IMG/VR virus record: IMGVR_UViG_3300021197_000260
Coordinates: 1-39,504 of that record
From: a virus
Length of the DNA: 39,504 bases
Reading direction: 5' to 3' (one strand)
Shown: positions 566 to 14,700 of the stretch, one piece after another
Numbering within the stretch: position 1 is the first letter of the stretch
How the letters are laid out: the number at the start of each line of letters is the position of its first letter
Notes under the pieces: model-generated
Seen by the model: only the letters and a program-made list of their open reading frames with translations
The model's database searches: none
Told to the model about the DNA's origin: nothing
Made by a program: the position numbers and the translations under genes

Positions 566-585
566 AGGGCTAAATAAATAGCCCT
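566..585 (-). terminator. Hairpin after the 65-aa ORF, weak terminator or processing site
   Basis: A 7-bp perfect stem, AGGGCTA (566-572) with TAGCCCT (579-585), around a 6-base A/T loop. It sits between the leftward ORF at 585-782 and the leftward gene at 526. The U-tract is poor (TTATTGG), so it may attenuate or mark processing rather than fully terminate. Confidence 0.4.
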
Positions 586-782
586 CATAAATAGTATATC
601 TTATCACGCTTTGCATCTGCTACGTGATACCCTTTTAAAACTTTTGTTTTCTTTTTGTAGTCAACTTGGCATTTCAATTCGCTGTACTTAGTACGCCCTA
701 AAAGAATTAAACTATATGTTAAACGCTTTATTTCATTTACTACTATGAGCAATAAACTAGGCTGAACTATACCCAAAAACAT
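585..782 (-). CDS. Possible small hypothetical protein (65 aa)
   Basis: A 65-codon leftward ORF with a hydrophobic N-terminal third (LLLIVV, then LILLG) and a lysine-rich C-terminal half ending KRDKIYYL. It would be the first gene of the leftward block after the control region. The upstream sequence (AAGCGG) is a weak ribosome binding site, and its stop lies at the edge of a hairpin. No family was recognised. It could be a real small membrane-associated early protein or a chance ORF. Confidence 0.35.
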   Translation of the reverse strand: MFLGIVQPSLLLIVVNEIKRLTYSLILLGRTKYSELKCQVDYKKKTKVLKGYHVADAKRDKIYYL

Positions 783-1271: not shown

Positions 1272-1314
1272 GTTCTCTCTTTGTTCTACTTTCCAGGATG
1301 TTCTATGTTTGTTC
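1272..1314. promoter_or_regulatory. Two tandem alphaproteobacterial-type LexA boxes
   Basis: GTTC at 1272-1275 and 1283-1286, and again at 1300-1303 and 1311-1314, form two sites of exact pattern GTTC-N7-GTTC (N7 = TCTCTTT and TATGTTT), 28 bp apart start to start. GTTC-N7-GTTC is the established LexA recognition pattern of Alphaproteobacteria such as Rhodobacter. An inverted partner AGAAC follows at about 1324-1328. The T-rich spacer agrees with known sites. Inference: host LexA represses a nearby phage promoter, which would fire upon SOS induction. Confidence 0.65.
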
Positions 1315-1370
1315 TACTTTATGAGAACATTGCTATTTTTTATTAATATATAATGTGTCATTTCTTTTTT

Positions 1371-1836: not shown

Positions 1837-1865
1837 TTGACAGTTATACTGTCCTTCTGTATACT
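1837..1865 (+). promoter_or_regulatory. Strong sigma70-type promoter P2 with dyad operator over the -35
   Basis: TTGACA (1837-1842), a 17-bp spacer and TATACT (1860-1865): consensus -35, ideal spacing and a 5/6 -10. A perfect dyad, GACAGT-TAT-ACTGTC (1839-1853), overlaps the -35 and half the spacer, where a bound repressor would block RNA polymerase. Transcription would start near 1872 and leave about 135 bases of leader before 2007. The leader contains a C/T-rich run and a 9-bp inverted repeat, TGGTATGTG (1914-1922) with CACATACCA (1979-1987). Confidence 0.7.
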
Positions 1866-2006: not shown

Positions 2007-2267
2007 ATGTATAAACAAAAGATAAGCTTGTACTCTTCTGAAGATGTCATTGAAGAGTTCTACGATGCTATAGCAGACGGTGATAGTAAACGCCTTAGAC
2101 GTGTACACATACCTAAGTCGGATGTATTCTACGTTCGTGAAGCCCTGGAAGCTAGGCTAGGACAGAGATATACACTGGACCACGTAGAGAGAGCTATGTA
2201 TTTAGAGGGATTCCTTACTAAATATGAAGTGTTAGACCCGGAAAGAGAAAGACCGGGGGTTGGATAA
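2007..2267 (+). CDS. Hypothetical protein (86 aa), first gene of the rightward unit
   Basis: Starts with ATG at 2007 after the long leader of P1/P2, with a modest AGG-type binding site (CCAGGCAA). The protein is charged and helical: an acidic N-terminal helix (SEDVIEEFYDAIADGD), a basic segment (SKRLRRVHIPKSDVFYVREALEARLG) and a tyrosine-containing C-terminal half. It has no membrane segment. Its basic centre and position next to the control region are compatible with a small DNA-binding or regulatory role, but no family was recognised. Confidence 0.7.
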   Translation: MYKQKISLYSSEDVIEEFYDAIADGDSKRLRRVHIPKSDVFYVREALEARLGQRYTLDHVERAMYLEGFLTKYEVLDPERERPGVG

Positions 2268-11791: not shown

Positions 11792-14700
11792 AGAACAAAA
11801 AAGTTTTCTAGATATGCTTACCTCTCCCCTGACAGGTGACTATCGAAAGAAAAAACCTATTAGTGTTAAAGCTGCAGATGTAGCAGTAGACATGACCCCT
11901 GTTGGATCTGCTGTTGATATAGCTGAAGAATTAGGTGAAGAAGATCCTAGTATAGCTAAGATAGGACTTATTGCAGCAGGTGATGTGCTTGGTGCGGCTA
12001 TACCTGTAATGGGTCCAGTTGCTAAAACCTTAATAAAAGGTGGTGTTAAAAAACTAGATGAAGTTGTTGATGTAAAAGATCTTACAAAAAATGCAGACAC
12101 AAATGCACTAGAAGAAATAGGATTAACTGATGAACAGTTAGAAGCATGGAAAGCAGATAACTACGCTAAAGATAAATATAGAATACCACGTGATCCTCAG
12201 TTAAAGGAAGCTGCAGAAAAACTACGTGATGGTAAACTTACTCAAGAAGAATATATAATATTATCTAATCAAGTACAACCTATTATACCCATAGAAAAAA
12301 TGCCTAAGTTTCCAACTAAAGAGGAAGTTATACAGGCATTACACGCAACAGATAAACGCAAAGTAGAAAAAGGTATTGTAGGAATAAACAAAACTATACC
12401 TGATGGCACTAAAATATCTGCAAGATTAGATATACCTGCATACAACGATACAGATACATGGATTGTTTCTTTACACGATGGTACAACAAAGAATGGAAAT
12501 ACTGTAGGGTATGCTCAAACAGCAGTTTTAGATGATGTTAAGTTTACTTCAAATCCTTTAGCAGCTACTTCTATTGCTGCAGGAACACCAAAGACAACTA
12601 TAGGTAGAATGAATGGTAGCTATGTAAATGCAGAACCAGATGAAGTATATGAATACACAAAAGAAATACTAGAAGGTAAAGCGGAAGATTGGACACAGGT
12701 AGGTATGAACCCTACTAGAGCATCTTACTTTTATGACAAATCAGATGGTATGCCTGTAGTATCTGCTGAACAAGTATTGCAAGTAGGTCCACTTGTAATG
12801 GCTTACAAGATTAAGAAAACAACTCCTGATGATGAGATGTTTCAATTCACAAATAAAAGAACAGGCGTAACAGGCAACTTTAATGAGGGCGGCATGGCAC
12901 TAGAAGAACAAATGATGATGAACTTTGGAGATGTACCTGATAATACAGTAGGAGTAGATCCTGTGTCGGGCAATGAAATACCTTTGGGTTCTACAGCAGA
13001 AAACGTAAGAGATGATATACCAGCGCAACTAAGCGAAGGTGAAATGGTTATACCTGCTGATGTAGTTAGGTTCTTTGGTGTAAAGTTTTTTGAAGACATA
13101 CGCCAAGCTGCTAAGATAGGCTACTCTAAGATGGCAGAAGATGGACGCATAGGTGGAGAACCTATGGACATGGAAGATGAGACTGGTCTAGGTTTAGAGA
13201 TGGCTGACTTAGAAGTAATGGATGATGGCGCTCCTGTTGAAATGAATAGAGGCGGTACTTCTATGGCTGACTACAGCGGCGCTGCGTTTAAGGCTGCTCA
13301 ATCAGCAGCATCTAAGAGAAATCCAGGTCGTACTGGTAGAAAAACACATGAACAGATAATGGCTCAGTTTAGAAATGATGATAATAACTCAAGCTCATCT
13401 AGTTCTAAACCTACTTCATCAAAAGCTAAATCTTCTGATTATTATTCTCCTGAAAATATCTCTAAAAGAGTTAAGGCTAGAGAGAACCAACCAAAGACAA
13501 AAGCAGAAGCATTTTACAGGGCGCTTCAGGGTTACTTATTTGACAACGAGGATAATACACCTGACAATCGTAGAGTTACTCTAACAGAAAAACCCCCAAC
13601 GTCTGACGATGAAAGACAGTTTGGAACCATAGATGAACAAATAAACTTTGGAGGAGACTTTTCAGGTAACAAGAAAACTAAAGAAGAACGTCCTAAAGCA
13701 GAGCGCCCTGTAGTAGATAAGAGTAAATACACAGTTACAGATTTACGAGAAGGTCAAGATCCTTTTCTTACTAAACTAGCTAAAAACTCAGGGTTAGACG
13801 AGATATTTGAAAAACTAGGTTTTAAGTTTGATGAAGGTGGTGATGTAGTAGATCCAGACGTAGTACAAGAAGGTACAACTGGAGGCTTTGGGGAAGAGAT
13901 AGGCTTGGGTGACACAGGTGTTATGGAAGCTCGTGAATATCAAAACGATGCAGGTCATGTAATAATTATTATGTTCTTAGACGGTGTACCTCTACAAGAA
14001 ATACCTGATGGTTATTACCCTGTAGGTAGTGAGCCTATTGCTGTAGATCCCGGTGAAGAGGCAGGTACTAGCAGTGGAGGCGGTGGAAGTAGTAATGATG
14101 ATGACGGTCCATCTGCACCAGCACCTACACCTGTTAACTTTAAAGAGTTAACTATGGAAGAACTAACTCAAATGGTAGACGATCAGAAAGGCATGAAAAA
14201 TAATGTAATAGCTGGTGGTATTTCTTATCTAAGTCCTGTTGTAGGCGGTGCAATAAAAGTTGCTATGTGGAACACAACAAGGCAAACTAAAAACGAGATA
14301 AAGCGTAGAATTGAACTAGATACAACTTCAAATGTTGACAGGATGCGTTATGAAAACTTACTTGATATTACTAACAGACAAGAACCTGGTTTAGTTAAAG
14401 TTTTATTAGGCAAGATAACAGGAGATTACACTGGTCCTGAGTTAAAGTCTCCTAAAGCAGTAGAAGGTGATGTATCTGATCCAACAATGGCCCCTGATCA
14501 AGGTATAGCAAAAGCTTACACACCTGAGATAAAAGCTCCAGAGACTACAGAAATAGCAACAGCTTTTACACCAGAAAGAATGGAAGCTATTCAAAAAATA
14601 ATGGCTGATACTGACCTGAGCAAGATTGGCAAAACACTAGATAAAACGGGACCTACAAATGTCAAAATCAGTGATGACGATAAGGGGCCAACATTTGTAT

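Follow-up and report, generated by a model that had tools for sequence, protein, structure and literature searches.

The control region of an HMO-2011-type marine podophage was found to carry two tandem GTTC-N7-GTTC sites, which on the basis of sequence comparison are well supported as LexA boxes of the alphaproteobacterial type and are probably operators for the LexA protein of the host. We propose that host LexA probably represses a rightward promoter of the phage, which would be released by the SOS response. The window, i.e., the whole stretch of DNA that was analyzed (39,504 nucleotides), is a 39.5-kb IMG/VR virus record and represents a fragment of the phage genome.

The phage fragment and its control region

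The closest isolate to the window is roseophage CRP-207, whose large terminase (TerL) is 83.5% identical over 100% to that of the window, followed by CRP-2 and CRP-603 with 82% identity. Right of the control-region gap, the gene order is syntenic with these three phages. The window contains the homologous packaging and structural module of HMO-2011-type phages; the gene for a DNA polymerase with an inserted DnaJ-like domain, another hallmark of the group, resides outside of the fragment. The part absent from the window, approximately 15 kb, holds the replication genes. CRP-207, CRP-2 and CRP-603 infect RCA roseobacters (PMC9038755, PMC6918029), and since these are the hosts of the nearest isolates, the host class Alphaproteobacteria predicted by the first-pass annotation fits.

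The control-region gap (783-2006) spans 1.2 kb between divergent genes. The nearest leftward ORF (585..782, minus strand) encodes 65 aa without a family match and begins the leftward gene block. The first rightward gene (2007..2267, plus strand) encodes a conserved 86-aa protein of unknown function, for which no Pfam family was found and whose predicted fold was of low confidence (pLDDT 55) and left out of the argument. Within the gap, the presence of two exact GTTC-N7-GTTC sites, annotated as lying 28 bp apart in a divergent intergenic region, was confirmed. Box 1 (GTTC-TCTCTTT-GTTC, GTTCTCTCTTTGTTC) covers positions 1272-1286 and box 2 (GTTC-TATGTTT-GTTC, GTTCTATGTTTGTTC), starting 28 bp from box 1, positions 1300-1314, both on the plus strand. 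A third match (13624-13638, minus strand) lies inside a long ORF. Three sites in the whole window against 1.1 expected are not unusual, at least three being reached in eight out of 100 shuffles. For at least two sites within the intergenic region, P was 0.00025, and two same-strand sites not more than 50 bp apart arose in six out of 1500 shuffles of the window.

Box 2 is partly overlapped by an inverted half-site pair, GTTCTACTTTATGAGAAC (1311-1328, with GAAC at 1325-1328), which may provide an extra LexA half-site. A full reverse box is found at the corresponding position in two relatives, L041 and L048. The GAAC half-site had been overlooked in the first-pass annotation, as had a TATAAT hexamer and two further repeat families of the same region, which are described below.

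Conservation of the boxes and likeness to host SOS boxes

Relatives were compared by use of the 86-aa gene as anchor, which was found in 574 viral stretches, and by examining the stretch upstream of it. Boxes recurred there at the homologous place, including that of box 1. The relatives are not independent samples, and their 64 homologous control regions fell into 36 sequence clusters; 19 clusters exhibited one or more boxes, irrespective of orientation, and 17, among them most cultured isolates (CRP-1, -2, -13, -207, -345, -603 and HMO-2011), none. In 74 regions, 74 forward GTTC pairs with a spacer of 7 bp were detected versus 0.6 expected (at most three in 200 shuffles). Counted as distinct contexts, 64 pairs had this spacer and zero to two any other spacing below 13, the excess among short spacings thus being almost confined to spacer 7. 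Seven of the 74 regions had entered the set through a search for the tandem pair itself; without these, a site was present in 38 out of 67 regions. In the alignment, the GTTC columns were conserved to 97-100%, the spacers and the linker to 77-88%. Many relatives possess a pair 29-30 bp apart, others three half-sites at an 11-bp period, a reversed box or a single box. The isolate CRP-9 (RCA strain FZCC0023) harbors GTTCCTGATTTGTTC and GTTCCTGATTCGTTC in the homologous region (55,590-55,670 of its record), 29 bp apart. A scan of IMG/VR for tandem GTTC pairs gave 34 non-coding sites out of 119 matches listed, compared to nine out of 120 listed for a reversed CTTG control; of these figures, the non-coding share alone is informative.

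Loss of the pair from close relatives that keep the flanking sequence had been named beforehand as evidence against LexA boxes. Such losses occurred in a minority: L024, which is close to the window, has kept the surrounding repeats with degenerate boxes, and the close relatives L023 and L026 have no boxes. The many relatives without boxes and the unremarkable count in the whole window are what could be expected of chance matches without function. This explanation is very improbable, as it is already contradicted by the comparison, in which the sites share the same place in 19 clusters, a strict spacing and a fixed distance to a promoter.

For comparison, we used host boxes from plasmids of Rhodobacterales on which the SOS operon imuA-imuB-dnaE2 is encoded. 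The boxes GTTCTTTATTTGTTC, GTTCTTATTTTGTTC, GTTCTTGTTTTGTTC, GTTCCTGTTTTGTTC (twice), GTTCACCATTCGTTC and GTTCCTCTTTTGTTC lie just upstream of imuA or, where imuA is unannotated, in the equivalent place; the host box of Roseibium (Hyphomicrobiales) is GTTCATTATTTGTTC. The 15-mer GTTCCTGTTTTGTTC is common to two phage regions (L015, L031) and two Paracoccus imuA promoters. Furthermore, L041 shares the 15-mer GTTCTTGTTATGTTC with Caulobacter, where it is an SOS box (PMC12700426), and the Caulobacter SOS box GTTCttgttatGTTC (PMC12700426) occurs in L041. Two T residues at spacer positions 5-6 were present in 56 out of 73 control-region contexts and in all eight host imuA boxes, but in only five out of 31 matches outside the control regions of the same phages (P = 5e-4, distinct spacers). 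By this contrast, real boxes can be told from chance matches independently of conservation. Both spacers of the window, TCTCTTT and TATGTTT, carry this TT, in agreement with the T-rich spacers originally reported. Conservation, the strict N7 direct repeat, host-like spacers and the placement at promoters together lend good support to the reading as alphaproteobacterial LexA boxes.

Alternatively, the sites may belong to a DNA-binding protein of the phage itself, as operators or iterons that only look like LexA boxes. In some relatives (L011, L041), GTTC recurs at an 11-bp period, dense GTTC arrays exist in seemingly unrelated viral contigs (L278, L249, L240, L246), and an unrecognized binder is conceivable because most of the phage genes are of unknown function. 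However, spacers and whole 15-mers match those of host SOS boxes, a LexA-type domain was not found in the phages examined, and the sites are few and placed like operators on a promoter, which makes a phage-encoded binder rather improbable. S24 peptidase (PF00717), LexA DNA-binding (PF01726) and HTH_3 (PF01381) domains did not score above cut-off in the fragment represented by the window or in its relatives (16-20 records), with partial coverage of other repressor families. Among the early-region genes of one relative (G001), no recognizable phage repressor was detected; a weak match to PF07704, a transcription-factor family, remained below cut-off.

Alternative host signals were also considered. 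CtrA sites (TTAA-N7-TTAA) did not occur in the first 2300 bases of the window, and CtrA or CcrM (GANTC) sites were either lacking or not in excess. The SAR11 phage HTVC033P was dropped as a LexA-free control, as lexA has been reported in SAR11 (PMC12753301).

Promoter geometry and other repeats of the control region

In 22 distinct contexts representing three architectures, exactly 13 bp separate the end of a box from a TATAAT or TATACT hexamer in the rightward reading direction. The same distance is seen in L018 and L047, whose proximal box is reversed, and in the divergent regions L055 and L056, which have a single box. In L025 and L033, a 15-mer identical to box 2 precedes TATACT by 13 bp. 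At this distance, the 15-bp box covers the -35 position of the rightward promoter, which is the classical place for repression. In the window, a putative -10 region (TATAAT, 1349-1354, plus strand) lies 34 bp after box 2 instead of the 13 bp in most relatives. By this distance the window is an atypical member, in which repression would depend on either binding upstream or the inverted half-site. A consensus scan did not disclose a good -35 hexamer for this TATAAT; thus, we infer the activity of the promoter at the boxes from conservation.

A strong sigma-70-type promoter, TTGACA-17-TATACT (1837-1865, plus strand), precedes the rightward operon. It is separate from the boxes and lies approximately 520 bp downstream of them, and most relatives have it at about -170 relative to the first rightward gene; promoter-like sites overall were not in excess in a sigma-70 scan of the window. 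As the rightward genes are transcribed from this separate, stronger promoter, they may be outside the control of the LexA-linked one. The latter might serve the rightward operon as an additional promoter, or give rise to a leader or a small RNA.

The suggestion that LexA holds an early promoter off stood in part: in relatives, a box resides on a promoter, but this promoter points rightward and is not clearly that of the leftward early genes. The operators could still be aimed at the latter (replication, integrase), if LexA near or beyond the leftward start blocked early transcription, as in the Bacillus phage GIL01 at P1. The two gene sets are more or less equally far from the boxes, whose distance to the leftward block is about 490 bp in the window and about 540 bp in G001, and an AT-rich element adjoining the box is partly self-complementary. 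We consider a leftward target unlikely, since the fixed distance of 13 bp is to a TATACT or TATAAT read rightward and a conserved leftward promoter was not found near the boxes.

Besides the boxes, the region harbors three TGTGATCACA palindromes (1370-1379, 1404-1413 and 1452-1461), which are operator-like and lie downstream of the LexA-linked promoter. Such palindromes come as two to four copies 30-48 bp apart and are conserved in many relatives, among them CRP-2, CRP-603, CRP-13 and CRP-345; a tandem pattern was found in 59 viral stretches. The second family is a perfect 20-bp direct repeat, TATTCAAAAAAGTGAATATG (1117-1136 and 1246-1265), which is itself an inverted repeat (TATTCA-N6-TGAATA) and looks like another operator. 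Its second copy ends 6 bp before box 1, and it is kept only in the subgroup of the window (L024, L041, L048). Upstream of the rightward promoters, a GGGCCA-n-GGGG-...-GTATATCTACACAG block (1597-1645) is conserved in CRP-207, CRP-2 and CRP-603, possibly a replication origin or the site of a regulator. At the place equivalent to that of the boxes, CRP-207 (L001, 600-690) has five TGATTCG repeats and no GTTC boxes.

The dense arrays in seemingly unrelated viral contigs consist of 6-11 GTTC-N7-GTTC sites repeated every 11 bp, most of the spacers resembling ACGTTTT (L278, 7987-8200; L249, 3991-4120; L240, 5416; L246, 3526; L214, 4493; L220, 7641-7830). Searches for matching phage records gave none for L249 and L214 and only a weak one for L220. 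These arrays could represent multi-LexA operators or, alternatively, iterons bound by a different protein.

Proposed switch and comparison with known systems

According to the proposed repression by host LexA, LexA dimers bound to the boxes in an undamaged cell would cover the -35 position of the rightward promoter and keep it off. Upon DNA damage, RecA-driven cleavage of LexA would clear the boxes, and the promoter would become active in the direction of the lysis, packaging and structural genes. The purpose may be to keep a lysogen quiet or to gate the lytic programme. All of these points, from LexA binding, repression and SOS induction to the promoter's direction, its product and the purpose of the switch, we infer from the DNA. 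The fact that boxes have been kept on a promoter in relatives indicates that the phage probably lets the damage alarm of its host switch on some of its genes.

The first-pass annotation had described a phage with no integrase in view. This is correct for the 39.5-kb fragment, but misleading with regard to the phage, as a tyrosine integrase is encoded by nearly all full-length HMO-2011-type relatives tested, in the part absent from the window. CRP-3, a member of the group, integrates at the host tRNA-Met gene (PMC6918029). A prophage search with the 86-aa gene in 84,980 species genomes returned only one spurious match of 17 residues, which speaks neither for nor against prophages. Lysogeny is a plausible purpose in members possessing an integrase. 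CRP-9 contains tandem boxes and no integrase, so that the boxes can have uses other than lysogeny. The same binder may rather serve to time lytic infection, a damage-gated analogue of the 'lytic deferment' by CtrA proposed for other phages of Alphaproteobacteria (PMC9437464), which differs from the favored explanation in purpose. CRP-9 fits this possibility; the integrase of nearly all full-length box-carrying relatives and the integration of CRP-3 leave lysogeny as the simpler use there, and we regard lytic timing as the less probable purpose, though a possible one.

More tentatively, host LexA might be the main brake on the central control region throughout an abundant marine phage group, which would then do without a CI-type repressor. 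DNA damage of hosts in the ocean would then set the lytic-lysogenic balance, and integrase-less relatives like CRP-9 would gate lytic infection by the same boxes. With host LexA as the switch, phages belonging to one of the most abundant marine groups would have their activity set directly by sunlight or oxidative DNA damage. CRP-9 and its RCA host FZCC0023 have been reported as isolates, so the idea is testable in a cultured pair. The papers searched on the HMO-2011-type group did not mention a repressor, promoter or LexA site, and within the open literature, subscription journals being outside its scope, we found no report on LexA co-option in these phages or in roseophages.

In CTXphi, coliphage 186, N15 and similar phages, which are treated in reviews cited by PMC9437464, phage genes are linked to the SOS response by a host LexA box located at a phage promoter; LexA works there alongside a repressor of the phage or governs an antirepressor. 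In contrast, no such phage repressor was recognized in the HMO-2011-type phages examined. The SOS promoters of Caulobacter (PMC12700426) and the imuA-imuB-dnaE2 promoters of Paracoccus exhibit the same GTTC-N7-GTTC motif with a T-rich spacer, including some 15-mers identical to phage boxes, but the phage boxes reside in phage control DNA and often form pairs 28-30 bp apart. Alphaproteobacterial phages with CtrA sites at their promoters (PMC9437464) likewise use sites of a host regulator in the same N7 layout; the regulator differs and the half-sites are TTAA.

The nearest parallel in kind is GIL01, in which host LexA together with gp7 acts at P1 and P3 (PMC4551915, PMC6182141) and lysogeny rests on host LexA (PMC6182141). 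Both systems feature tandem host-LexA sites at phage promoters, putative ones in the phages studied here, including the late promoter P3 of GIL01 with its paired operators, and lack a dedicated CI-type repressor, which for the phages studied here refers to PF00717, PF01726 and PF01381. At the sequence level, putative LexA operators are present at a phage promoter. The integrase of nearly all full-length relatives would fit a temperate life cycle; it is absent from the window fragment and from CRP-9. GIL01 differs by its Gram-positive host, palindromic boxes, a linear extrachromosomal lysogen and a phage co-repressor, with binding and induction demonstrated by experiment, whereas the phage described here, known from its sequence, is a tailed podophage whose host is an alphaproteobacterium and whose boxes are direct repeats. 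Co-option of LexA by phages is already established through GIL01, CTXphi and 186, to which the HMO-2011-type group would be an addition.
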